Shown here: one piece after another, positions 340-21,395 of the stretch | How positions within the stretch are numbered: the first letter of the stretch is position 1 | Layout of the letters: each line of letters begins with the position of its first letter | Assembly: GCA_900169235.1 (NCBI GenBank) | Contig: FWCC01000574.1 | Location: 1 to 21,395, forward strand | DNA length: 21,395 nucleotides | DNA from: Zarea fungicola | Lineage: Eukaryota > Ascomycota > Sordariomycetes > Hypocreales > Cordycipitaceae | Direction: 5' to 3' | Position numbers and translations under genes: made by a program | The notes under the pieces: model-generated | The model's input: only the letters and a program-made list of their open reading frames with translations | Told to the model about the DNA's origin: nothing | Database searches by the model: none

Positions 340-3300
340 ATGCCTTTTTTCCCAACGGCCGACGCAACCCTCTTGTCGTCGCCATCAGTAGAGAAGCCCA
401 AGGCTCCCCTCCGGCCCACGATCATTCACCCGATATTTGATGTAGACAATTTTGACCGGCCTATTGAGCTGTGGACCTCGGAGACTGAGTCATGCTTCTA
501 CCCGCCAAAGTTAGACTCTTATGCGCCTTCATCGATACCAAAGGATATTGCTCCCCCCGGGGCGCCATACCTACGCGCTCAATTGGCCAGAAATGAACGA
601 TTGCGGCTGTCTATGCTCTGGTATTACGGGCGGGATCTAGACCAAGAACATGAGCTCCTTGCGGGCCTTCAAGAGAAGGCATGCTTAGCTCAAGAGTCCT
701 CGGGATGGGAGTTTGCAGTCGTCGGCATACTCGATTTAAACGTTTATATCCGTCTGGCAACGGCTGGTGGTCTTCAGCTCGGCATTCTCCCCCGTGGTGA
801 AACTCTTTGCGCCCATACCGCGACACAACCACCTGGTGTATGAAACCTTCTTAACTCTGACTTCTGCCTCCCACCAGCTAACCCGTTACGGACAGAGTGT
901 GTTCCTCCTGCCAAATATGCTCGAGGACTGGAGATTTCGAGAGTCGCCTTACGTGGAACAAGGCGGGTTGGTGGCATATGCTGGCATCCCTCTTCGAATG
1001 CAGCACGAATCTGGCGAGTGCATTTCGTTTGGTACGATATGTGTAGCTTCAGCAACCAGTCAGCCTCCTCTATCTCGACAGCAGCAGCAAACTCTCACCC
1101 GCCTCGCCGATTGGGTGGTGGCTGACATAGTGCAGTGTACCCGGTTGCGACGCCAGAGAGAGCGCCGTCGACTCGCGGAACTCCTTGCAAATGCTGAGAA
1201 TGCCTGCGACGAGAATGATTCTCAAGAGACAGTACTAGAGATGCTACAAATGGCATACCCGAGCGACATGATCAGCATCCAGGCGTCGTCAGACCTCGAA
1301 CCATGCGATTTAAATGGGAAAAACACACCATTTCCGCCAAATCTAGAGAATGGGTTATGGGAAGACACTGCCTATATTGACGAAGTCATTGCTGTCTCCA
1401 ACCACGATTGCACTCCAACAGACAAAGTAGTCCGCCTGATGTCTGCCCAATGCGACAGTAAATTGGGTAATTCATTAATAGTTGTGGCTACGAAAAACTT
1501 CCGACGAATATTCGATGACGTTGACTCTTGGTTTATACAACGTTGCGCAAATTTAATTACTCGGATTTGGCAGAGGTCTGTCATGTCGGAAGCACTCAGA
1601 GCCAAGGAGATTTTTCTTCGTGGAATATCTCATCAGCTTCGAACCCCGATTCATGGTATACTCGGTGCTGCTGAACTACTTTCAGAGGATTTCAAAGCCA
1701 TCGCTTTCTCTGACAACTCCTCCGCGCGGCCAGCATCAATGGAAGTCACGAACCTTCCTGACATTGCTGGCAAGGCGTCGTTGTATCTCGATGCTATATC
1801 TGGAGCCGGCCGAGAACTCATGTCAACCGTCAATAGCATGATCACATTGAACAGATGGGCCGATGTTGCTGTTGCTGAACGACATTACGCTTCATACGAC
1901 GTTGGTGACCTCGAGTCTGACCTACTACGGCGAGTTTCTGAAACGACTATGCACCGCACTGACCAGGGGGCCTCAATATTTTTTCATTGCGATTCATCTC
2001 TGGACTCTATCAAGCTACGGACCGACATTAAATTGCTTCGAGAGAGCCTCCTTCCTGTTATTCTAAATGCTCTTCAGAGCACGGCAGAAGGTGTTGTAGC
2101 CGTTACATTCTCGACGCCGCCAGGCACAAAAACATTAGTCGTCGATATTGAGGATACAGGCTGTGGCATTCACCCAGATGACCAAGCGCGCATTTTCCAG
2201 CTTTATGAGAAAGTCGACGAGCACTCAGCCGGCGTTGGACTTGGGCTGACCCTTTCTGTCAAGTTCGCGGTGTTGCTGCATGGTTCAATCGAGCTGATCT
2301 CCTCACGGGTGAATCAAGGCTCGCATTTTAGAGCCACTTTTAAGAACATTGCTCATATCTGCTCAGTTGGGCCTCCACGTGCGATAGCCTCTTCCTTTCA
2401 ACACTTATCTCTGAAATATCGTCAGCTGGAGACGGACTTCTGCGACTCACACCTGTCATCCAATTTCGCCAAGTTCTTGGCCCGCAATGGATTCATTAGT
2501 TCAAAAACCTCTGCAGAAGATTGTTTCACAATTTCTGAGTACAGTCATAACTCAGATCAGCCGCATAGCAACCCAGTGTCAATATTGGAGCAGGTCGCCA
2601 TTGTGCTAGTTCCACGAAATGTGGACATGGATTGTCTGGTGAAGATTCCCAATGTTATTTATGCAAGCGAACCGTTCTCAACATCAAACCTCTGCAGCAC
2701 GCTTCAGGAGGCCGACAGACTCAGTGCCGTGCTTCAATTGACGCGCACTAGTCTCGCCAAGACTGCAACGACCTATCAAAGTCAGCATAGCTTCCATGAT
2801 GATTTTTTGCCGTCAATTGCGGTTTGCACCAATTTACATGGGGGGTATAACTCTACGGACGAATCTTCATCGTGCAGCGAGGATTCGCTTCAGACACGTG
2901 AGCTTAGTAGCGGCTTGGCCTCAGATGGGGATTCGTCCCCGACAGACGAGTCCTCGGAGGCGTCATTCCTGAAGCGGCCTCTTGCGCCTTTACCCCCTCA
3001 AAAGTCAGCTAAACCGCTGGTACTTCTTGTGGATGACAACGTTGTCAACCTCCGCATCCTGGAGATGTATTGCAAGAAACGTGGACTGTCATTTGTCAGT
3101 GCGACGGACGGTAAAGCGGCCGTTGAACTGTTCTCAAAGCACCAAGCGCTGTCCACCAGAAGTGGGAGCGTTCCCATTGAGCTGATTTTAATGGACCTGC
3201 AAATGCCGATATGCGATGGCATAAATGCAACACAGCAGATACGCTCATTAGAGGAACAAAATTCGTGGATCCCTAGTGTTGTATTCATCGTGACTGGCCA

Positions 3301-3418
3301 AGACAGTCAACTTGATAAAGAAGCAGCTAGTGCTGCTGGTGCCGATGACTATATGGTGAAGCCTGTTGGTATGAGGCATTTGGACGCTGTAATGAAGAGA
3401 TATTTTCAATTGCTCTAG
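340..3418 (+). CDS. GAF-type hybrid histidine kinase with receiver domain
   Basis: Sensor kinase of a fungal multistep phosphorelay: it autophosphorylates on His, passes the phosphate to its own receiver Asp, and would signal through a histidine phosphotransfer protein. The model has exons 340-837 and 896-3418, giving 1006 aa. The 58-nt intron (GTATGA donor, CTAAC at 878-882, ACAG acceptor) restores the family motif 'TQPPG-SVFLLPN' of the GAF-like domain (about residues 100-250). H-box ISHQLRTP has the phospho-acceptor His412. N- and G-boxes follow, with DTGCGI at 586-591 and GVGLGL further on. A Ser-rich acidic linker leads to a C-terminal receiver with the double Asp, MDLQMP (Asp933), the TGQ Thr and the VKP Lys, so all catalytic positions are present. 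No membrane segment is seen, so it is probably soluble. The start ATG at 340 has a good AAA context. It is the first gene inside the left end; the ligand is unknown. Confidence 0.93.
838..895 (+). other. Intron of the histidine kinase gene
   Basis: 58 nt, with donor GTATGA, branch point CTAAC at 878-882 and acceptor ACAG. An alternative acceptor, CAG at 875-877, keeps the frame but gives a 40-nt intron and adds six residues (LTRYGQ) not expected from the family. The longer intron is preferred. Confidence 0.85.
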
Positions 3419-6899: not shown

Positions 6900-7445
6900 A
6901 TGCCAAGCGATCGAAGCCACGACAGCCATCGGCACGGCGGCCGTGAGCCAACTCTGTCAGACAAGTTTGAAAGGTTCATTGACAAGATTGATCCACTCAG
7001 CATGAGTTCAAGTCGCCAGAATGATGCGTCTCTGATACAGCACCGGGATCATCATAACCATGGACACCAGAGGCATCGCAACGACCAGCGCTACCGGGAC
7101 GAGTCTCCCTCTCTCCAACATGCCTACTCGAGTCCCACGTCAGCGAATTCGCGCCGCCACGGCAGTGGACAGCACAGTAAACGCCACTCTCAGGGACATT
7201 CTGAGAACTTTTCCAGTAGCCAAGCTATCAAGTCGGCAGCCCTAACGGCAGCCATTGAGGCGTTGAGAGCACGACACGACAAGGACAAGGTGATTCGGGT
7301 GGCTACAGCCGCTGCTGCGTCGGCAGCTGTGGACGCTGCTATTGGTAGCAAGAATGATGAGAAGAGTGTGAAGCATGTGGCAGAAAGCACTGTTGCTGGT
7401 CTTGCAATCGGGAAGTGGGCAAATAAGAAAAGCAGACATGAGTAG
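6900..7445 (+). CDS. His-rich small protein with Ala-rich helical C-terminus, function unknown
   Basis: A 181-aa single-exon gene with ATG in GCC context. The N-terminal 110 residues are low-complexity and rich in His, Arg, Ser, Asn and Gln, with dense clusters such as QHRDHHNHGHQRHRND, and probably disordered. The last 70 residues form Ala-rich amphipathic segments (SAALTAAIEALRARHDKDK, ATAAAASAAVDAAIGSKN, ESTVAGLAIGKWANKK) resembling the Ala/Gly-rich repeats of small fungal stress proteins, but I cannot name a family. The His clusters could bind Ni, Zn or Cu; that is inference from composition only. There is no signal peptide or transmembrane segment. The tandem STRE upstream fits stress induction. 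The open frame is long and the composition non-random, so it is probably real. Confidence 0.72.
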   Translation: MPSDRSHDSHRHGGREPTLSDKFERFIDKIDPLSMSSSRQNDASLIQHRDHHNHGHQRHRNDQRYRDESPSLQHAYSSPTSANSRRHGSGQHSKRHSQGHSENFSSSQAIKSAALTAAIEALRARHDKDKVIRVATAAAASAAVDAAIGSKNDEKSVKHVAESTVAGLAIGKWANKKSRHE

Positions 7446-8351: not shown

Positions 8352-8696
8352 ATGGCTTCTCCAAACCTCACGGATCCAGTGCGCAAGCAAGCCAGCAACC
8401 CCAACGAGCGGCATTTACATGCCACACGCACAACAGAGGATGTAGAAGCTGAGATGAATGCTGCGCAACAGAGCAAGATTCCAGAAGGCACCTTTGGCCC
8501 ACACAAAACACGCCTAGCAAACGCACTCGACCCCCGAGTTGATTCCGACTTGGACTCTGCGGCGAATCCAAAGACAGCAATGACGACCGGCGCGGACAAC
8601 TCTAAATCTACGCAGAGGGGAGCAGGAAAGAGCGCATCGCTTGGCCCGACGTCAAATGCTCCCCGCTCAAGTGGCACTAGAGACTCTGCAATCTAG
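8352..8696 (+). CDS. Small hydrophilic, probably disordered stress-type protein
   Basis: 114 aa, single exon, ATG in AATA context, 71 bp downstream of a TATA box. The protein lacks long hydrophobic stretches and is rich in Ser, Ala, Asn, Asp and Thr; it looks intrinsically disordered over its whole length. The central segment GTFGPHKTRLANALDPRVDS resembles a motif I associate with small conserved fungal proteins of unknown function (GPH..LAN.LDPRVDSD); that recall is from memory and unverified. There is no signal peptide, Cys pair or catalytic motif. The composition resembles LEA-like/hydrophilin proteins made under desiccation or stationary phase, which is inference. It lies between the His-rich gene and the SDR, all on the same strand. 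Confidence 0.75.
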   Translation: MASPNLTDPVRKQASNPNERHLHATRTTEDVEAEMNAAQQSKIPEGTFGPHKTRLANALDPRVDSDLDSAANPKTAMTTGADNSKSTQRGAGKSASLGPTSNAPRSSGTRDSAI

Positions 8697-10773: not shown

Positions 10774-11756
10774 ATGGAGACTGCAAAGGAAGCTCTTCAG
10801 AACATTGCCAGCCGATCCAGAAAGGAGCCAACCCAGCAAAGCAAGCCAGGTATCGAGGGCGATATGCCGAACAAGCCGACCAAGGTGCATCTCCAAAGCG
10901 GGGACTCTAACGAGAAGTCAGCATCCTACGCAGCCAGCGGTAAACTCAAGGGTAAAAATGCCGTGATCACTGGAGGTGATTCCGGGATCGGCCGCTCTGT
11001 GGCAATACTATTTGCAATGGAAGGTGCGAAAGTCGCTATTGTTTACCTGCCCGTAGAGGAGCAAGACGCACAGCACACCAAGGCTCAGGTGGAAAAGAAT
11101 GGCGGAGAGATTTTGCTCTTAGCAAGCGACCTGAGCCATGCCATCAATTGCAAGGATGTGGCCGAAAGAATTGTTACAACAATGGGCAAGGTCGACATTC
11201 TTGTGAATAATGCGGCTACGCGCAACCAAGAAGGTAGCATAAGTGATGTCAGCGAGTAAGCCAAGAGCCTCTAATGCAACAAGGGGAGTTTTATGTTATT
11301 GACAAATATACCAGAGATCAATGGCTGTCGACTTTCCGTGTCAACATTGATTCGTATTTCCACCTAACAAAGGCGCTACTGCCTCATATGGCAAATGGAG
11401 GCTCCATTATCAACAGTGCCTCGGTGGACTCGTACATTGGTGTTCCTAGCCGCATCGACTACGCGACAAGCAAAGGTGCCGTCGTGGCTTTCACCCGCGC
11501 GCTGTCCAACGACGTTGTTAAGAAGGGCCTGCGAGTCAATGCTGTAGCAGCAGGGCCAACCTTGACTCCGCTCATGGCCTCAGGCGTGGATAAAGAAGGC
11601 CAGCAGGGGCATGGCTTGGGTAACTGGACAGCAATGGGCCGCATCGGACAGCCAGTGGAAGTGGCAACGAGTTATGTCTTCCTGGCCTCCTCCGATAGCC
11701 AATTCATGAGCGGGCAGACGCTGCACCCCAATGGAGGTATTGTAGTAAACGGATAG
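10774..11756 (+). CDS. Short-chain dehydrogenase/reductase of the YghA/general-stress type
   Basis: A classical-fold SDR that reduces a carbonyl or oxidises an alcohol with NAD(P)H; the substrate is unknown. Exons 10774-11255 and 11315-11756 give 307 aa. The 59-nt intron (GTAAGC..CCAG) joins 'SDVSE' to 'DQWLSTFRVNI', as the family requires. Residues 66-73 are the TGGDSGIG cofactor loop, followed by NNAA, Asn171, Ser197, Tyr210 and Lys214 (YATSK), a complete catalytic tetrad. The roughly 55-residue N-terminal extension with PTKVHLQSGD and 'Y.ASGKLKGK' is typical of the bacterial YghA/YdaD/YhxC stress subgroup, also common in fungi. The ATG at 10774 (ACAATGG) is preferred to the in-frame upstream one at 10726, which would add an atypical hydrophobic stretch. 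It is likely cytosolic. Confidence 0.93.
11256..11314 (+). other. Intron of the SDR gene
   Basis: 59 nt, donor GTAAGC, acceptor ACCAG, possible branch ATTGAC at 11298-11303. Nearer AG dinucleotides (11283, 11288) give the wrong phase, so the acceptor at 11314 is the only one that restores the family sequence. Confidence 0.85.
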
Positions 11757-12268: not shown

Positions 12269-15200
12269 ATGGCCACTTGTCGCAAAGAACCGAGTATACA
12301 ATCACGAAACTCTATTGACGATGTCTGGGGCCCGAGGACGCCATACCTGGAAGATTGGCCTGTGAGGCTAGATATGGCTGCCGATGAGGAGCCGCAGAAG
12401 TGGGTGCAGAGTGCATGTGTGCTATGCAGGTATGTCTTTTCAAAACAGAACTATTTTTCAAACGAGAGTAATTCGAGAACTGATCGCTGGACAGCAACGG
12501 ATGCGGCATGGACATTGGCGTAAAGGATGGCAAGGTAGTCGGTGTTCGTGGCCGAGCTGCTGACCGCGTGAACAAGGGAAGACTGGGTCCCAAAGGCCTT
12601 CACAGGTATACAGACAATTAGAGTCTCTATGATTGCCTATAGCGCTTCTGACGTTTAATTTATAGCTGGAAAGCTCTTCACAGCAAGGACAGACTCACCC
12701 ATCCACTTATCCGGCGCCACGGAAAACTAGAGAAGGCGACATGGGATGAGGCGATGAACCTTATTGTTAAGAAGGCCAAGGAGTTGTTGGAAACACTTAC
12801 AGCGCATAGTGTTGCATTTTACACTAGCGGCCAGCTATTTTTGGAAGAATACTACGCATTGGCTCTCATTGGCAAAGCCGGGCTGCAAACCCTTCACATG
12901 TATATGTCACGATTTCTCTCTATGTTGAAGTTAGCAATAATTAATTATGCTATTAGGGACGGTAATACGCGCTTGTGTACTGCGACGGCCGCTGCGTCGA
13001 TGAGAGAATCATTCGGCTCCGATGGACAGCCTGGATCTTATAGGGACATTGACACCACGGACTGTATAATGCTTGTGGGCCATAACATGGCTGCAACACA
13101 AACAGTACTTTGGTCTCGGATTCTTGACCGTATACACGGGCCTAGTCCTCCGAAAATAATTGTGATTGACCCTCGCTATTCAGAAACGGCGAGCAAGGCG
13201 ACAGTGCATCTCACCCCACGAGTGGGTACTAACTTGGCTCTGCTCAATGGTATTCAGCACCTAATGTTTACGAATGGATACATTGACAAACATTTCGTTA
13301 AGAAGCATGTAGTCGGTTTGGAGTCTCTGCAGGCAGTGGTATCAGAATATTCTCCAGAAAAAGTTGAAGAGATCACAGGGGTGTCAGCAGCAACTCTCCA
13401 AGAAGTCGCGGCAATTCTGGGTTCAACTCCCACACTACTGTCCACCGCTTTGCAAGGCGTATATCAGTCAAATCAGGCAACAGCAAGCGCATGCCAGATT
13501 AACAATATCCATCTACTTCGCGGCCTAATTGGAAAACCGGGGAGCGGCATCTTACAGATGAATGGGCAACCCACTGCGCAGAATAACCGGGAAGTTGGCT
13601 GCGACGGCGAGTTCCCTGGTTTCCGAAATCACCAAAATCCAAAGCATTTTGAGGAGTTGGCAAAGCTGTGGAATATGGATAAAATACGAATTCCGCACTG
13701 GAATGAACCAACGCATATTGAGAATATGCTGAAGTACATGAAAGCTGGAAGCATTCGAATGGTCTGGATCAGCGGTACAAATCCTCTCGTGAGCCTGCCA
13801 AATCTGCCAGCTATGAGAGACATTTTTACGCAACCAGAGCTTTTTGTGATATGTCAGGATGTTTTCATGACGGAGACAGCTAGCGTGGCCGACGTTGTCC
13901 TGCCTGCTGCACAGTGGGGAGAAAAGACAGGCTGTTTCACAAATGCTGATCGAACTGTGCACATTTCGCTGAAAGCGGTTGAGCCTCCGGGGGAGGCTCG
14001 ATCAGACCTTCTGATTTTTCTCGACTTCGCTCGTAGAATGGGGTTCAAAGACAAAGACGGACAAGATTTACTACCCTGGACAGAGCCAGAGCAGGTTTTC
14101 GAAGCCTGGAAACGCATATCGGCTGGGCGACCGTGTGATTATACTGGTCTATCATATGATTTGTTAACAGGAGGATCTGGTATTCAGTGGCCATGTAACG
14201 AGGCGAATCCCCACGGAAAAGAGAGGCTTTTCGATGACGGCGTCTTCTTCACTGACATGGATGTGTGCGAAAGCTTTGGCCATGACTTGGAAACCGGCGC
14301 GCCGTTTTCTGCAGACTACTACAGGAAACTTAACCCTGCGGGACGTGCGATTCTGAAGGCATGCCACTACTTAAAAGGCTATGAGGAGCCCGACGATGAT
14401 TATCCATTCCGGTTGTCGACGGGTCGCAACGTCTATCAATTTCACACGAGAACGAAAACGGGCAGGACTGCTCTGCAAAAAGCCTGCCCAGAACCTCATA
14501 TTCAGCTGTCCAACAAGGATGCCAAAGATCTCAACCTTGAAACTGGAGACATGGTAATGGTCAGGTCACGGCGTGGCGAAGTTGAACTGCAAGTAGAAGT
14601 TGGCAAAATTGCGACCGGCCAAGTTTTTATTCCTTTTCATTTTGGTTACTGGGATGCTGAAGATGGGAGGGCTCGGGCGGCGAATGAGCTCACAACTAGT
14701 TCGTTTACTATCCTCCCACACACCCGCAGTAACGTGCTGACAATACATTTAGGTGAATGGGATCTAATCTCAAAACAGCCGACGTTTAAATCGGGGGCAG
14801 TTGCTATAACTAAACTCGGTTACAAAACGCAAGAACCCGGTAGCAAAGGCACTGTCACGGTCAAGGAAGCGCAAACTGCCGCTGTTAAGTCGACAGCCAG
14901 TACTGATGCAGAAACGACCACTGCCACACGTAATGACTTGGTAAATCGCCGTCGCCATCTCGAGAGCTGGCTTGGGGATACACACGAGTGCATTGAACTG
15001 CTTGATAACACATTTAAATTTCTCCTTCCGAGAGTAGCATCTGATTCGGACGCCCAGCTCGGGATACGCTCACTGCATATCATTTGCGGTCGTATCCGTG
15101 AACGCCTGAAGCCTCAGATTGAGAAGTTCGGAGAGAAGGTTCAAGGCAGGCCTGTGAATGCTGTCCATGCTTTACATAAATCGCTCTTTAACCACACTGA

Positions 15201-15435
15201 AACTGGCGAGGGGCTTTTGAACATCCTAGCCATGTTGCGGGCGCTGCATGTATTCGCAGCACATATCCAGGCCTGTCTGACGGCCCTGGTTCCGGTGAGC
15301 CAAGCGCTATGGGATGAAGAATTTTTTGAGGCGGCAAAGTTTGCGAATACGGAAATGGAAAGAATTCAAGATTGGATCAAGTTTCAGCTCCAGGTTCGCG
15401 CGCCGCAAACGTTGTTAGTGCCAGCTTTAAAGTAG
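12269..15435 (+). CDS. Bacterial-type molybdopterin oxidoreductase (Nas/Nap nitrate-reductase-like), with C-terminal helical domain
   Basis: A Mo-bisMGD oxidoreductase of the DMSO-reductase superfamily. Exons 12269-12429, 12495-12605, 12666-12899 and 12957-15435 give 994 aa. The N-terminal iron-sulfur motif is Cys50-x2-Cys53-x3-Cys57 (SACVLCSNGCG), but Gly85 replaces the usual fourth Cys (GRLGPKG instead of GRLCxKG). Cys176 in NTRLCTATAA sits where NapA/NasA have the Mo-ligand Cys (compare NSRLCMxSA). Then come the bis-MGD contacts (VGHNMAATQ, GTNPLVSLP, TNADRTVH) and the dinucleotide-binding barrel (about 651-770, STGRNVYQFHTRTKTGR..FHFGYWD). Residues about 835-990 are an additional four-helix segment with several His. 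There is no twin-arginine or other signal, so it should be cytosolic. The clade resembles actinobacterial 'molybdopterin oxidoreductases' as I remember them. The substrate is unproven; nitrate is a guess and formate cannot be excluded. MobA and MoeA follow directly. Confidence 0.93.
12430..12494 (+). other. Intron 1 of the molybdenum enzyme gene
   Basis: 65 nt, GTATGT..ACAG. It splits the iron-sulfur motif between Cys53 and Cys57 (AG|C = Ser54), and removing it gives SACVLCSNGCG. A CTGAT near 12480 may be the branch point. Confidence 0.9.
12606..12665 (+). other. Intron 2 of the molybdenum enzyme gene
   Basis: 60 nt, GTATAC..TATAG, branch CTGAC at about 12648. Splicing joins GRLGPKGLH to SWKALHSKDRLTHPLI, the expected order. 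Confidence 0.9.
12900..12956 (+). other. Intron 3 of the molybdenum enzyme gene (57 nt, frame-neutral)
   Basis: Donor GTATAT, acceptor TTAG. The stretch is 19 codons with no stop, so it reads through as coding. Removing it gives LHM-DGNTRLC, the continuous family sequence; retaining it inserts a 19-residue hydrophobic peptide seven residues before the Mo-ligand Cys176. Splicing is therefore inferred from homology and splice signals, not from a frame break. Confidence 0.8.
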
Positions 15436-15683
15436 GAGCTGGTAGCATGCTCTGTATTACAATGCAAGCTTCACGCATAACGCGAAGCACTGTTCTCAAT
15501 GAATTTTTCTCATATGGCCTATGGTATTTAGCAATTTCATTGCCCTCTAGCGACGGTTATCTCATTTTATATGACGCAATGATTACGTCGGGGGGTTACC
15601 AGAGCTCACAATCCAATGTTCCGGAATTCAACCCCATCAAGCAACACAAACTTGGACCTACTAGAATCAATTCTATCGAAAAA
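15436..15683 (+). promoter_or_regulatory. Short spacer upstream of mobA with bZIP-like sites
   Basis: 248 bp between the molybdenum enzyme and mobA, genes on the same strand. It is open in the mobA frame, but that reading overlaps the previous gene and is not similar to MobA. TGACGCAAT (from 15572) and TTACGTCG (15583-15590) lie about 95-110 bp before the ATG and resemble ATF/C-EBP composite sites. Confidence 0.35.
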
Positions 15684-16316
15684 ATGGTCTACGAGCTTAT
15701 AAATTTGAAGCCTCTTATTCTGGCTGGCGGAAGAGCCACCAGGATGGGTGAGCCAAAGCATATGATGCAAACGCCAGATGGCTCGAGTCTGCTCCAGCGC
15801 ACTTTCGACCTCATGAGTGATGTTTTCCAACAGACATCCACAGTCTACGTATCCATAGCACAAGACTCAGTGCTTGGCTCTTTCATGACTGACAATATGG
15901 CATCAGCTAGACTCATATTTGATGAAGAAGAAAACACTACAGTGCGATCCGCTGGCCCAGCTTCTGGTCTGTTGTCTGCCTACCACATGGATCCTACAGC
16001 CATTTGGCTGGTGGTCGGGTGCGACTATCCACTTCTGACCACTCATGCGCTGGATTGTCTTCGGCAGGCATACGAGCCGCCAATAACATGCTTCCAGAAT
16101 TCCGATGGGTTTTTTGAGCCGCTTGTTGGGATATGGTCCCCCCCAGCACTTCACGCGCTGGAGGATGAAGTTGTGACTGGGAAAGGAAGTCTCACTGCTG
16201 CTATCAAGAGGTGTGATGGCAACACCGTCTCGGCCCCTGATGGTTGTGAGCACTGGCTTTTTAATGTAAACAATCAAGAGGAGTGGCACCGCGCCCTGGA
16301 GCTTTTGAAAGCTTAA
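15684..16316 (+). CDS. mobA: Molybdenum cofactor guanylyltransferase MobA
   Basis: Transfers GMP from GTP to molybdenum-molybdopterin to form the MGD cofactor, in the cytosol. 210 aa, single exon, the usual bacterial MobA length. The nucleotide-binding signature LAGGRATRMGEPK (residues 13-25, Lys25 included) is intact. VGCDYPLL carries Asp114, the Mg-binding position of the canonical PCDxPxL. FEPLVGIW matches the 'EPL(F)ALY' segment, and FNVNNQEEW matches the C-terminal 'F.NINTPEDL'. The ATG at 15684 (AAAAATGG) is chosen because the signature starts ten residues later; the longer open frame from 15372 overlaps the preceding gene. Known eukaryotic Mo enzymes do not need MobA, so its place right behind a bis-MGD-type enzyme says what it is for. 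CobA/MocA-like relatives are possible, but the neighbour argues for MobA. Confidence 0.9.
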   Translation: MVYELINLKPLILAGGRATRMGEPKHMMQTPDGSSLLQRTFDLMSDVFQQTSTVYVSIAQDSVLGSFMTDNMASARLIFDEEENTTVRSAGPASGLLSAYHMDPTAIWLVVGCDYPLLTTHALDCLRQAYEPPITCFQNSDGFFEPLVGIWSPPALHALEDEVVTGKGSLTAAIKRCDGNTVSAPDGCEHWLFNVNNQEEWHRALELLKA

Positions 16317-16356
16317 GTGAATCAGTTTCAGAATTAATCTTGCCGATGTCTTTATT
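16317..16356. other. 40-bp convergent gap between mobA and moeA
   Basis: The stop codons of mobA (+) and moeA (-) are only 40 bp apart. AATAAA on the minus strand (plus TTTATT 16351-16356) directly follows the moeA stop codon, a possible polyadenylation signal. The two transcripts must overlap at their 3' ends unless cleavage is extremely tight. Confidence 0.6.
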
Positions 16357-17709
16357 CTATGACACCATTGGTGTGAGAGGGTAGCACTCGACCATCTCAC
16401 CGTTCAAAAGACTGCAGCTAGGATAAATATGTACCCAGCAATTCGCCGATATAAATGGCTCTAGCTTTGCGGAAGAAATTTCGGCACACACTTCTACGAC
16501 GTTACGACCGCCAGTGGTAGATGTAAGACGGCCTAGCAGAAAGCAGTCGTTCAGCTTTCTAGATGAGAAAATGGTATTACACCGGTACATCTCCTGGTGT
16601 CGGCATTCTTTGTCTTGCCGCGTAGCTTCTGCTATGACTGGTCGCTCTGGGTCTCTCAGTTGGATTTGGCGCAGGAATGGGACAAGCAAAAATCGGAAGC
16701 AAGCTGCTGAAGCGCCAGGATTGCCCGGTAAACCAAAGAACGCGACTGGGTCTGCGCTCCGATTTGAGGGCAAAGATGCAAACAGCACAGGATGCCCAGG
16801 CCGAATATCAACACCATGAAACAAAATGTCCGCTCCACAGCTTATCAAGGCGGGCCGAACAAAGTCAAATTTTCCGGCAGAGACAGCACCGGTCGTGACT
16901 AACACATCAAAGTCACCTGTTTCGGCAGCCTTTTTGATCTCTCGCGTCAGATCTTCCTGTCTATCATCCAAGTAGCCCAGGAACACCGGGTCGGCATCAA
17001 AGTCCCGACAAAGAGCCATCAAATACGGGCCATTGATATCTGTCCGCGCATTGGACGCATCAGAAACAAACTCATTGCCCGTGGACCAGATTCCAACCCT
17101 GGGCCTCGCAACAACGGATATAGTTTCGACCCCGGCAGATAAGAGTGGCAGTAAATGCGGCGACAAGATTCGCTGACCAGCGAGAATAAGGGGCTGACCT
17201 ATTGCCAGGTCACTCCCCTTCACGCGGCGGTGCGCGCCAGGAGGGACGGCATGCGTAATGGCAATGATTTTTGTGGCTTGACCAGTATTCGATTCAACAG
17301 ATGAAGAGACTGACACACGCTCAACTGGAACACAGGCGTCCAGCTCCATCCATTCGTCATCTCCCTCCGGAAACTGTCCACCCGTCATCATCTCCAGGCA
17401 AATTCTTCTGCTCTTCCAAGGCGCCCCAGCGCATTTCGACGGCTTATGTCCTGGAACGATTGTATCAATGACGGTAAATATTGCGGGAGAATCGGGCGTC
17501 GCGTTGCTCGTTGCCGAAGAACAGATGAGAAAGCCGTCCATGGCAGAGGTGCTGTGCACAGGTGTAGCTCGAGGGCTTAGATATGGCGTAGCAGAAATTC
17601 TCCCAACCGCGTCAATCACAGGGACATTTTCTAAAGGAGTCGTCGGCGGTGTTGCGCTGGAGGGGGTTTTCTTTAATAACCCGAGCGCGTCCAAGAAGGA
17701 AATTGTCAT
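16357..17709 (-). CDS. moeA: MoeA-like molybdopterin molybdenumtransferase
   Basis: Inserts molybdate into adenylylated molybdopterin. 450 aa, single exon, from ATG at 17709 (A at -3); the open frame extends upstream only to a TTG at 17772, not a normal fungal start. It shows SAMDG (55-59, Asp58 at the catalytic position), then the MoCF-like fold with STGNEF, DINGPYL, TTGAVSAGKFDFV, HGVDIRPGHP and FGLPGNPGASAACF, and a C-terminal domain IV-like tail. Two small departures from the textbook: the Ala in TTGAVS where Gly is usual, and His in PGHP instead of PGKP. The usual fungal enzyme (CnxE) is fused to a MogA-type adenylyltransferase domain; none is present here, so it would need host MogA activity to supply adenylylated substrate. 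It converges on mobA and diverges from the malic enzyme. Confidence 0.9.
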   Translation of the reverse strand: MTISFLDALGLLKKTPSSATPPTTPLENVPVIDAVGRISATPYLSPRATPVHSTSAMDGFLICSSATSNATPDSPAIFTVIDTIVPGHKPSKCAGAPWKSRRICLEMMTGGQFPEGDDEWMELDACVPVERVSVSSSVESNTGQATKIIAITHAVPPGAHRRVKGSDLAIGQPLILAGQRILSPHLLPLLSAGVETISVVARPRVGIWSTGNEFVSDASNARTDINGPYLMALCRDFDADPVFLGYLDDRQEDLTREIKKAAETGDFDVLVTTGAVSAGKFDFVRPALISCGADILFHGVDIRPGHPVLFASLPSNRSADPVAFFGLPGNPGASAACFRFLLVPFLRQIQLRDPERPVIAEATRQDKECRHQEMYRCNTIFSSRKLNDCFLLGRLTSTTGGRNVVEVCAEISSAKLEPFISANCWVHIYPSCSLLNGEMVECYPLTPMVS

Positions 17710-18313
17710 AATCACCAAAGTATAGACACTGACGGGTCTCGCGTTTAGTTGAGCGGCGCAAAAAATGCACAACGAAAGAATATCAGTTTCAGGGCTGCAG
17801 AATTACACTTTAAAAATGAAAGGTCAATATCCATTAGCCACATTCGGTTGGTTTTTTGACAAGGGAGAAATATCCTGCGACGTCATCGCCCTGTCATGGA
17901 ACCTATGTACCAGCACCTAACATTCTGCTTTCTAGTGGAAACAGTTCATGATCAATTAAATTAACTGTATTTCGGGCATACCGCTTATAATATTTAATTG
18001 CATTAGCAGCCTTGCCATCATCACGCAGCGGGCTCTCACTGAAGCTCTATTGGCCCGAAAAAGAACCAGGTTTTAGCTGCAAGGGTCTGGGTTGGTAAGT
18101 AACTAGTTAAGCAATTAGCAGGTGAGCTACCGATTAATAAATCAATGACATCAGGAAGAGATTTTGCCCCATCAAGTAGGAAGTAAAGCTTGGGCTTGAA
18201 TCGAGCCATTTAATTCGTTTCATAGTATCTATCTCATTTCACCCCGGAATTCCTGCTGTTCACTCCTCTGCCCGCCATCACCGTCATTGCCCGCACTCCA
18301 GCTCACCATCAAT
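17710..18313. promoter_or_regulatory. Divergent promoter region of moeA and malic enzyme
   Basis: 604 bp between two divergent start codons. A CRE-like CGACGTCA is at 17878-17885, about 170 bp from moeA and 430 bp from the malic enzyme. The last 60 bp before the malic enzyme ATG are CT-rich, typical of a fungal leader. No other gene is visible. Confidence 0.45.
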
Positions 18314-20487
18314 ATGCCTACTTGGAAACCGTCTTCCAGGTTCACTCACCTGCCTCGCGCTGCATCTGGTGCATTGACCTGTTCAATCACAGGCCAGCCG
18401 CTGCTTTCTCTGGCTCAATATAACAAAGGTTCTGCTTTTCCGAATAATGAGCGCAAAGCATTTAAACTGCACGGACTTTTGCCGCCCAGGGTCCAGACGC
18501 TCGACGAACAGGTTGAACGAGCCTATCGACAATATTCCAGCTGTGGCGATGACCTCACCAAAAACACCTTCATGGCTAGTATGAAGGCGCAGAATGAGGT
18601 GTTGTATTACAAGGTCTGCAGCACCTTTTTTCCTCCCCATAGTACAATGAATGTTTCAGCTCATGGATAGAACCAGCTTCTTCAAACACACCTCAAGGAG
18701 ATGTTAAGCATCATCTACACTCCCACTGAAGGGGATGCAATTCAAAACTACTCTCAACTATTCCGAAAACCAGAGGGATGCTTTCTCAACATTCGCGATC
18801 AGAATGCGATTGACGAATGCATGGCTGCCTGCAGCAATGCGGAGGACATCGATTATATCGTCGTTAGTGATGGCGAAGAGGTAACATAGCCTGAAAGGGA
18901 TCAAAGCCTAAATAAAGTGACTCAGACTTGTAGTAGATTTTGGGTATCGGCGATCAGGGCGTCGGCGCCATTCTCATCTCCGCCGCGAAGTTAGCCATCG
19001 CGACCTTGTGCGCCGGCATTCATCCATCGCGCCAGCTGCCCGTCGTTCTAGACTGTGGCACTAATGTATAGTTCATCAAACACCGCGAGAATATTGAAGG
19101 GGCAGCACTAATCAAACTCCAAAGAATGAGGGCTTACTTAAAAACGATTTGTATCTTGGCCTACAAGAACGTCGTGTACGTGGTAAAGAATATGATGAGT
19201 TTGTGTCCAAATTCGTTCAGGCTGCTCGCAAGCATTATCCTAATGCCTACATTCATTTGTAAGTTCTTTTAGTTTATAGGCTAGTAGGATGATCCCCGCC
19301 CTTTCTTCATCTGTATTGACTCTTCAAGTGAGGATTTCGGCCTACAAAATGCGAAGCGAGTTCTCGACAGATACAAATCTCAAATCGCGTGCTTCAACGA
19401 TGATATCCAAGGCACTGGTTGCGTCACCGTCGCTGCTATGCTGGCTGCACTGCATGTAAGCGACGTCGAGGTTGAGGATGTCCGCGTTGTCATCTTTGGC
19501 TCGGGCACTGCTGGGATGGGAATTGCAGATCAAATCGCCGATACCATTGTTACACAGACAGAAAAGTCTAGAGAAGAAGCGCGCAAACAAGTTTGGTGAG
19601 TCTTGCACAAGAAAAATCTTCTAATCGATAGGAAGAACGTCTAGGCTCTGGTCCTATTTTGGGCTCATGCGTTTGATGTGCACCATCATGCCACAAGTTT
19701 TGGGGAATAGGTGTCTAACACGACGTTCAATGTAGGTGCATCGATAAATACGGCCTTCTACTAAAATCACACGGCGACAAGTTAACTGCCGCCCAAGTTG
19801 AATTTGCTAAGGGCGAGGACGAATGGCCAACTAACGATCAAAACGACTTGCTCGCCGTAATCCAACATGTCAAGCCGCATGTCCTAATTGGAACATCAAC
19901 TAAGCCAAACACATTCGACGAGAAGATCATTCGTGAAATGGCTAAGCATATCCAGAGGCCGATTGTGTTTCCTCTGAGCAACCCAACACGACTACACGAA
20001 GCGCAGCCTGCAGATCTCTTCAATTGGACTAATGGTAGAGTTCTTGTTGCAACAGGCAGCCCGTTTCCTCCAGTGGAGTACGGGGACAATAAGTTTGACA
20101 TAGGCAAGTAAAATTGGTTTTTTTTTAAAAAAAAAAGGAACTAACACTTTCCATGTAGCTGAGTGTAACAACTCTATTTGTTTTCCTGGCATTGGTCTTG
20201 GTGCGATTTTATCTAGGAGTCGGCTTGTTTCCAAGAAGATGCTGGTGGCAGCCGTTGAAGCAATCAAGCTAAAATCGCCTGCCCTAAAGGCTTCAACAAG
20301 GGCTCTTTTGCCTGATGTAGGGGATATTCGCGAAATGAGCGTTGAAATTGCTGCTAAAGTGATTCAATGTGCTGTCGAGGAAAACCTCGCGCAGGAGAAG
20401 AATATCCCCTCGGACGATGATGACCTTAGAGAGTGGATTCGTGCTCAAATGTGGGACGCTGTGTACCGGCCGCTAGTTAAACAGTGA
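18314..20487 (+). CDS. NAD(P)-dependent malic enzyme, seven exons
   Basis: Oxidative decarboxylation of malate to pyruvate and CO2 with NAD(P)H. Exons 18314-18613, 18677-18880, 18937-19065, 19125-19258, 19329-19595, 19736-20103 and 20159-20487 give 576 aa, the normal size. Seen: [30 protein letters not shown] (Tyr114), [38 protein letters not shown] (Glu257, Asp258) and NDDIQGTG (Asp280, Asp281) as metal ligands, FGSGTAGMG (312-320) as dinucleotide loop, [26 protein letters not shown] and the C-terminal [16 protein letters not shown]. All are intact. The N-terminus is basic, Ser-rich and without acidic residues for about 45 residues, compatible with a weak mitochondrial presequence. Start ATG at 18314 (AATATGC); upstream only TTG. 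Intron 6 uses a GC donor. NAD versus NADP preference cannot be told by eye. Confidence 0.95.
18614..18676 (+). other. Malic enzyme intron 1
   Basis: 63 nt, GTCTGC..CCAG, phase 0. Joins VLYYK to LLQTHLKEM. Confidence 0.85.
18881..18936 (+). other. Malic enzyme intron 2
   Basis: 56 nt, GTAACA..GTAG, branch GTGAC near 18917. Joins VSDGEE to [10 protein letters not shown]. Confidence 0.9.
19066..19124 (+). other. Malic enzyme intron 3
   Basis: 59 nt, GTATAG..AAAG. Joins LDCGTN to NEGLLKND. The acceptor AAAG is weak, but it is the only one keeping the family sequence. Confidence 0.8.
19259..19328 (+). other. Malic enzyme intron 4
   Basis: 70 nt, GTAAGT..CAAG. The split Phe256 codon gives YIHFEDFG. 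Confidence 0.9.
19596..19735 (+). other. Malic enzyme intron 5
   Basis: 140 nt, the longest intron in the window, GTGAGT..GTAG with CTAAC at about 19714. The split Trp345 codon gives KQVWCIDKYG. Confidence 0.9.
20104..20158 (+). other. Malic enzyme intron 6, GC-AG type
   Basis: 55 nt. The donor is TAG|GCAAGT, the strong exon context known for GC-AG introns; CTAAC at about 20141 and acceptor GTAG follow. Joining gives FDIAECNNS, the family sequence. A GT donor four bases further on would give an in-frame stop. It contains a T9A10 run (20118-20136). Confidence 0.85.
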
Positions 20488-21376: not shown

Positions 21377-21395
21377 CAAGGGGGTGACAAAAAAA
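21377..21395 (-). repeat. Right terminal inverted repeat
   Basis: CAAGGGGGTGACAAAAAAA, the exact reverse complement of bases 1-19. It is 19 bp long with no mismatch and lies flush with the window end, which strongly suggests the window was cut at the element's ends. Confidence 0.85.

Follow-up and report, generated by a model that had tools for sequence, protein, structure and literature searches.

The locus described here, in the ascomycete Zarea fungicola, raises the question of whether a fungus can make bis-molybdopterin guanine dinucleotide (bis-MGD), the cofactor of DMSO-reductase-type molybdoenzymes, and whether it does so for one enzyme encoded next door. The window (the whole stretch of DNA that was analysed, 21,395 bp) coincides with contig C22, one of the 456 contigs in a 43.1-Mb assembly. 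Three genes lie adjacent to one another at 12269–17709 in coding frames without internal stops, namely those for a DMSO-reductase-superfamily (NapA/Fdh-like) molybdopterin oxidoreductase (12269..15435, plus strand; 994 aa after removal of three introns), a MobA-like molybdenum cofactor guanylyltransferase (15684..16316, plus strand; 210 aa) and a second, divergent stand-alone MoeA (16357..17709, minus strand; 450 aa). The trio had been noticed in an earlier reading made from the sequence alone (the sequence-only reading), and both the Pfam domains and the frames bear it out. It is probable, in our judgement, that the genes form a long-resident fungal cluster of bacterial ancestry, in which bis-MGD made by the linked MobA would be loaded into an oxyanion-reductase-like enzyme.

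The cluster consists of fungal genes and is part of a fungal genome, because the enzyme gene contains introns, the contig neighbours are of fungal type, and the GC content of the enzyme, MobA and MoeA genes (0.49–0.52) agrees with that of 28 stretches at other contig ends (mean, 0.50). Those neighbours include a HAM1-like gene, a histidine kinase gene, an SDR gene and malic-enzyme exons. The enzyme gene is composed of four exons (12269–12429, 12495–12605, 12666–12899 and 12957–15435) separated by GT...AG introns on the plus strand. Introns 1 (12430..12494) and 2 (12606..12665) were read from the sequence, the former joining CVLCS to NGC as in homologues. Intron 3 (12900..12956; 57 nt, in frame) was called because the homologues read HMDGNTRLC without the 19 residues that it would encode, and its junction restores HM-DGNTRLC. 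Thus, the argument of the sequence-only reading that introns mark the gene as eukaryotic, and not as contamination, is supported by the homologues and by the 43.1-Mb fungal assembly, with the third intron added to it. Bacterial contamination or a recent single transfer has a negligible probability: a bacterial-named relative, P0103 (53% identical), does appear among the 120 matches listed, as the sole one of its kind, whereas the introns, the fungal-type neighbours on C22 and the grouping of the enzyme with 29 named fungal rows from both Ascomycota and Basidiomycota all speak against contamination.

The enzyme is a member of the DMSO reductase (MopB) superfamily, as judged from its own domains and from the fold predicted for a Fusarium relative. 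Molybdop_Fe4S4, Molybdopterin (PF00384, 193 bits) and Molydop_binding (PF01568, 79 bits) domains score above cut-off in a 1013-aa model that still held intron 3. The AlphaFold2 model of the Fusarium relative P0001 (pLDDT, 88.6) best matches the structure of NapA (2jio; TM-score by target, 0.92; 32% identity), and FdhH (1fdi; TM-score by target, 0.90) is the next-best distinct enzyme. NapA is also the closest solved relative by sequence when the bacterial relative P0103 serves as the query. Together with the PDB matches, these domains and this fold uphold the claim that a bis-MGD-type enzyme stands beside MobA in a eukaryote. Motif conservation was counted in the columns of a 131-row alignment (the window, 38 fungal proteins, 12 others and 80 bacterial loci). 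The presumed Mo-ligand Cys sits in DGNTRLCTATAAA and is followed by Thr; this Cys, the Thr and the Lys of GPKG are each found in 130 of the 131 rows, with one gap. The Fe-S motif of the window enzyme is CVLCSNGC, and its first three positions are Cys in 113, 112 and 114 of the rows, about 17 rows, all bacterial, being devoid of Fe-S cysteines altogether. The genes had been described as carrying their key motifs and looking intact, which holds for the frames; of the Fe-S cysteines, usually four in number, the enzyme has three, with Gly in the place of the fourth.

Analysis of the MobA-like protein revealed an NTP_transf_3 domain (72.7 bits). In a 32-row alignment, K25 and D114 are invariant and the LAGG motif is nearly so, while identity to the window protein ranges from 27% to 86%, bacterial-type rows included. 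A sequence search of the PDB at E-values up to 1 gave eight matches, every one to MobA: a single strong match (3.7 × 10−10) and seven weak ones (0.019–0.14). From these features, the protein would have guanylyltransferase function. The NTP transferase domain and the LAGG/K/D motifs are shared with bacterial MobA (1fr9/1e5k and 2e8b, which we take to be the Escherichia coli and Aquifex proteins, respectively); similarity to these bacterial proteins is low (42.9 bits to 2e8b, 17.7 to 1fr9), and the fungal protein differs in being linked to one enzyme gene. Profile searches of the whole genome, which score the best candidates only, returned the window MobA as the single PF12804 (NTP_transf_3) match. 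No match to MobB was found in the fungal genome (6 of 14 control genomes have one), and FdhD was likewise without a match (8 of 14 control genomes).

In the window MoeA, MoeA_N (81 bits) and MoCF_biosynth (91 bits) domains both score above cut-off. No match to MoeA_C (PF03454) was obtained for this protein, whose PDB matches extend no further than residue 377 of 450. The genome encodes a canonical MoeA with a His-rich linker on contig C172, which we take to be of the gephyrin type. MoeA_N and the aligned MoCF region are common to the window protein and this gephyrin/CnxE-like copy, whereas the window protein is without the MogA part and the MoeA_C match and is substituted at three motifs given below. 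Grouping of the two copies is not rejected by the approximately unbiased (AU) test (p = 0.068). Regarding other molybdenum genes, Oxidored_molyb has four matches in the genome, of which the one on C210 reads, by eye, as a eukaryotic nitrate reductase: its Mo and cytochrome b5 parts lie within the stretch, as does the beginning of its FAD part. By eye, the fungus has two eukaryotic nitrate-reductase-like genes, on C210 (L037) and C85 (L035). PF00384 has two matches only in the genome, the window enzyme and a protein on C343, presumably the 75-kDa subunit of complex I.

Relatives of the enzyme were sought in genome contigs, where at least 583 of 595 stretches encode one; 80 loci from many bacterial phyla were kept. 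The bacterial family annotated as nitrate reductase (Oxalobacteraceae P0103; L071–L150) shows the same motifs in most rows and about 49–63% identity over the matched main open reading frame (ORF); unlike in the fungus, none of the 80 loci (61 of at least 22 kb, 19 cut shorter) yielded a MobA or MoeA at a distance of up to 10 kb from the enzyme, even with wider profiles. Two members of this NapA-like family were tested, and neither reached an NCBIfam equivalog cut-off. In 12 bacterial genomes searched whole, MoeA scored above cut-off in all 12, and a MobA-like match was present in all 12 and above cut-off in four. Thus, the clustering of enzyme and MobA appears to be peculiar to fungi, as would be expected if the enzyme is the sole client of MobA there. 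The bacterial neighbours were clustered after exclusion of ORFs overlapping the enzyme, and one representative per cluster was annotated; the clusters include TM_HPP (17 of the 80 loci), DUF326 (10), SDR (8), zinc alcohol dehydrogenase (8), TPP enzyme (8) and SLAC1 (7). The HPP and SLAC1 families include nitrite- or anion-transporting members, and our guess of an oxyanion substrate derives from these two neighbours. On a separate point, MobA and MoeA matches fall in one 624-aa open frame of a Massilia stretch (L161/L180; G002:C1), suggesting a fused MobA-MoeA.

The distribution in fungi was explored by a protein search with the enzyme, in which 7,999 candidates were scored, 7,216 had E-values of at most 0.001, and names were taken from the best 120 listed. 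These carry 76 fungal names and one bacterial name, and 43 are without an organism. Holders of the enzyme among the matches listed include Fusarium, Trichoderma, Colletotrichum, Pyricularia, Aspergillus, Penicillium, Knufia and Saitoella, as well as the basidiomycetes Naganishia, Filobasidium and Crassisporium. Thirty-eight fungal proteins were hand-picked from the 76 named before the tree was thinned; the final FastTree tree had 87 rows and covered the first 800 residues, with one row per bacterial genus and nine near-duplicate fungal rows removed. All 30 fungal rows and six nameless rows fall on one side of a branch with support of 100, and 45 bacterial loci, bacterium P0103 and five nameless rows on the opposite side; among the nameless rows of the fungal side, P0072 and P0085 diverge outside the named fungi. 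For MobA, an alignment of 11 such proteins served as the query and returned 569 relatives, the best 120 of which were listed. In the MobA tree, which has long branches and in which six bacterial rows are less than half filled, 16 fungal rows (one nameless) form one group against 15 bacterial-type rows (98/96), with MobA of Bacteroidota nearby. The phylogenies that had been proposed for the three proteins therefore set the fungal enzyme and the fungal MobA each apart from bacteria, but MoeA was not placed.

Comparison by eye of the two lists of 120 matches yielded 14 enzyme/MobA pairs on contigs of equal size, and in four of them (Fusarium sarcochroum, Thermocarpiscus, Monosporascus MC13-8B and Stachybotrys chartarum) the gene numbers are two apart. 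MoeA probably adjoins the enzyme in Monosporascus too, because the record P0027 of this genus has the enzyme fused to MoeA domains. Trichoderma ghanense is placed beside Cladorrhinum and Coniochaeta by both trees, whereas T. barbatum falls with the window and further members of Hypocreales. A single Trichoderma clade is rejected by the AU test for the enzyme (p = 3 × 10−108) and for MobA (p = 2.5 × 10−4), p values that do not belong to a prior hypothesis, since the groups were chosen after inspection of the trees. Because both trees reject one Trichoderma clade, it is likely that enzyme and MobA have moved together between fungi, at least once across orders; ancient duplication followed by loss is an alternative explanation of the Trichoderma split. 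The idea of a transferable package thus survives in a changed form, as an enzyme/MobA pair that seems to have moved between fungi.

Under the mechanism that we propose, the ordinary pathway of the host, with the gephyrin-type MoeA of C172, would supply Mo-molybdopterin, to which the linked MobA would add guanosine monophosphate (GMP), giving bis-MGD; the divergent MoeA of the cluster may assist in this step. The cofactor would then be taken up by a soluble, presumably cytosolic NapA/Nas/Fdh-related enzyme, for which no signal peptide is evident by eye and which most likely reduces an oxyanion, nitrate being the leading guess. MobA may have been kept beside the enzyme since the enzyme is probably its only client. 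The route is comparable to the tungsten route of Methylorubrum extorquens FDH1, which, according to PMC13197769, is likewise a cofactor route for one bis-MGD enzyme with its own MoeA; that route differs in being bacterial, in using tungsten and in needing MobB and FdhD, neither of which is matched in the fungus.

Several observations weigh against parts of this interpretation, and those on the enzyme bear on its substrate. The fourth Fe-S position is Gly in 118 of the 131 rows, Asp in 12 and a gap in one, and is never Cys, so that the usual four-Cys 4Fe-4S motif is absent; the Thr after the Mo-ligand Cys differs both from the Met found there in Nap and from the His found there in Fdh. The enzyme scores below every curated equivalog cut-off tried, including NasC (368 of 1100 bits), NapA (338 of 904) and Fdh-alpha TIGR01591 (467.6 of 666), and a nitrate role would be redundant with the eukaryotic-type nitrate reductase at C210. 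Arsenite oxidase has a three-Cys motif and a 3Fe-4S centre. These points, namely the Thr in 130 of 131 rows, the missing fourth Cys, the unreached NasC, NapA and Fdh cut-offs and the resident nitrate reductase gene, leave a chance only somewhat below even that the cofactor is as proposed and the enzyme is no nitrate reductase, acting instead on another oxyanion or in a high-potential oxidation as in arsenite oxidase. Nitrate is nevertheless favoured by the best structural match, a nitrate reductase, and by the TM_HPP and SLAC1 neighbours in bacteria (17 and 7 of 80 loci, one representative each). The Desulfovibrio desulfuricans NapA (2jim/2jio) resembles the predicted fold of the Fusarium relative and shares the Cys Mo ligand and the GPKG Lys, whereas the fungal enzyme departs from NapA in having no evident signal peptide, no fourth Fe-S Cys, Thr after the Mo-ligand Cys, an extra C-terminal helical domain and introns.

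It is improbable that the enzyme is a formate dehydrogenase that oxidises formate, even though TIGR01591 is its best NCBIfam model and the E. coli FdhH structure lies close to the predicted one: the score is under the 666 cut-off, Thr rather than His follows the Mo-ligand Cys, and the genome has no match to FdhD, a sulfurtransferase that known Fdh enzymes need. The same three features set the enzyme apart from cytoplasmic Fdh enzymes (E. coli FdhH, M. extorquens FDH1), with which it has in common the fold and the best family model.

The remaining points against the proposed mechanism concern the cofactor genes and their linkage. In NCBIfam MobA models, the window MobA reaches at most 74 bits (61 of 152 for TIGR02665), far under the cut-offs, though the TIGR02665 cut-off is itself reached in just one of the 14 controls and in four of the 12 bacterial genomes. 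The window MoeA reads STGNE for STGDE, GAVSAG for GGVSMG and RPGHP for KPGKP of the canonical copy. Linkage in relatives is a proxy drawn from equal contig size and gene numbers, not from DNA sequence. No MobA of Aspergillus, Penicillium or basidiomycetes is among the best 120 of 569 listed, though such fungi hold the enzyme, and linkage is therefore seen mainly for Sordariomycetes. Tree distances of enzyme and MobA are correlated (Mantel r = 0.77, with none of 5000 permutations as high), a correlation that could stem from shared species history alone; the 18 taxa compared comprise the 14 matched pairs, the window, F. oxysporum (matched by species) and pairs for Coniochaeta and Corynascus in which different species were joined.

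The divergence of MobA (27–86% identity, scores far under the family cut-offs) could also mean a decayed or repurposed NTP transferase and an enzyme cofactor without GMP, bis- or mono-molybdopterin; a nucleotide-free bis-Mo-MPT exists in E. coli YdhV (PMC9103625). We regard this as unlikely, since K25 and D114 are invariant, LAGG is nearly so, and the MobA tree agrees with the enzyme tree.

If bis-MGD is indeed made by the linked MobA, the consequences extend beyond the window. On balance we lean towards the broader proposition that Dikarya make bis-MGD, the first eukaryotes known to do so, by means of a MobA reserved for this purpose and a second MoeA, both travelling with one client enzyme. 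The self-contained module would have been passed between fungal orders, and the client would be a eukaryotic molybdoenzyme of a new class, its Fe-S site having three Cys. PMC4633490, PMC10609526, PMC6650914 and PMC9370521 describe the DMSO reductase family or the bis-MGD step as exclusive to prokaryotes, and a prokaryote-only DMSO reductase family, MobAB or dinucleotide cofactors are likewise stated in several among PMC7816997, PMC10100899, PMC6400420, PMC13223375, PMC6340186 and other cited papers. A survey covering 250 eukaryotes lists no families for them other than SO, XO and MOSC (PMC6147048). According to a 2025 MoeA survey, fungal MoeA is either fused to MogA or lost, and three Pfam domains including MoeA_C were required (PMC11733289), so that the window MoeA, without a MoeA_C match, would be excluded from it. 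In a literature search of titles and the starts of abstracts, with preprints and most subscription papers outside it, no description of a fungal bis-MGD enzyme or MobA was apparent among the papers listed (at most 20 of up to 10,811 matches per search). It had been reasoned that homologues already widespread and described in fungi would undo the idea; they are widespread and deposited in databases, but none was found described with MGD in that literature. The fungal enzyme and MobA are often labelled 'nitrate reductase', 'hypothetical protein' or 'MobA-like', and the module is thus present in databases under routine names while reviews deny its existence. If the genes work, the claim of prokaryotic exclusivity will have to be revised, a dinucleotide branch will be added to the biology of the molybdenum cofactor (Moco) in eukaryotes, and fungi that are common and culturable will offer systems for testing it; the pair would also illustrate clearly how an enzyme and the step that makes its cofactor can move together.

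The sequence-only reading had also placed the cluster on a mobile element, which is not upheld. A perfect 19-bp inverted repeat occupies both ends of the contig (1..19, plus strand; 21377..21395, minus strand), and it speaks for a cargo transposon bounded by terminal inverted repeats. The repeat, with the end CAAGGGGGTGACAAAAAAA, however, breaks the assembly at 56 contig ends (the two of the window and 54 others): its 15-mer core has exactly 56 copies in the genome, 21 near a contig start and 35 near a contig end. The inner flanks of the 56 ends all differ, and two contigs that extend past the repeat have about 70 nt in common on the outward side; the repeat is therefore the edge of a sequence lying outside the contigs, where the assembly broke, and not an element boundary. 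The window is unique DNA between repeat copies. No transposase is found among the 10 window proteins scanned, and DUF3435 matches, which would point to a Starship, lie on C178, C102 and C422 and none on C22. A cargo transposon carrying the cluster is accordingly very improbable, and an element with its ends at the window ends was rejected on the tracing of the repeat and the lack of a captain recombinase on C22. Five further matches have one mismatch, and three of them are inside contigs (C88, C265 and C298). Among the 56 flanks, complementary 5-mers number 10 and complementary 6-mers zero, with 0–7 in shifted controls (7 at offsets 2 and 4), which hints that the repeat may possibly be a DNA transposon with 5-bp target duplications. 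In viral contigs, the repeat had no matches, and five stretches fit the enzyme pattern, none of them a relative.

The enzyme ends in a C-terminal helical domain (14929..15432, plus strand), modelled as a ferritin-like (YciF-like) helical bundle with weak PDB matches (best E-value, 2.7 × 10−3). It is a separate ORF directly downstream of the enzyme in 40 of the 80 bacterial loci and fused in about 13 (24 were scored as fused by the script, of which 13 end in PQxL, and 16 stayed unassigned). We do not propose a ferritin-like metal site: of nine conserved His/Cys/acidic columns in 34 rows, the window keeps three, plus Asp for Glu at a fourth.

Elsewhere in the window, a hybrid histidine kinase at 340–3418 has HisKA, HATPase and response regulator domains and a weak GAF. 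It is split across two frames near 767–880 by an intron or a frameshift; a candidate intron at 836–877 was dropped because the spliced model is out of frame. Two small hydrophilic ORFs (6900–7445 and 8352–8696) have no Pfam match. Malic-enzyme exons (PF00390, PF03949) with changing frames lie at 18287–20486 and represent either a gene with several introns or a decaying one. The SDR gene is found as two ORFs at 10774–11756, just upstream of the enzyme, and an SDR near the enzyme of the bacterial locus L121 is 39% identical to the first part of the window SDR.

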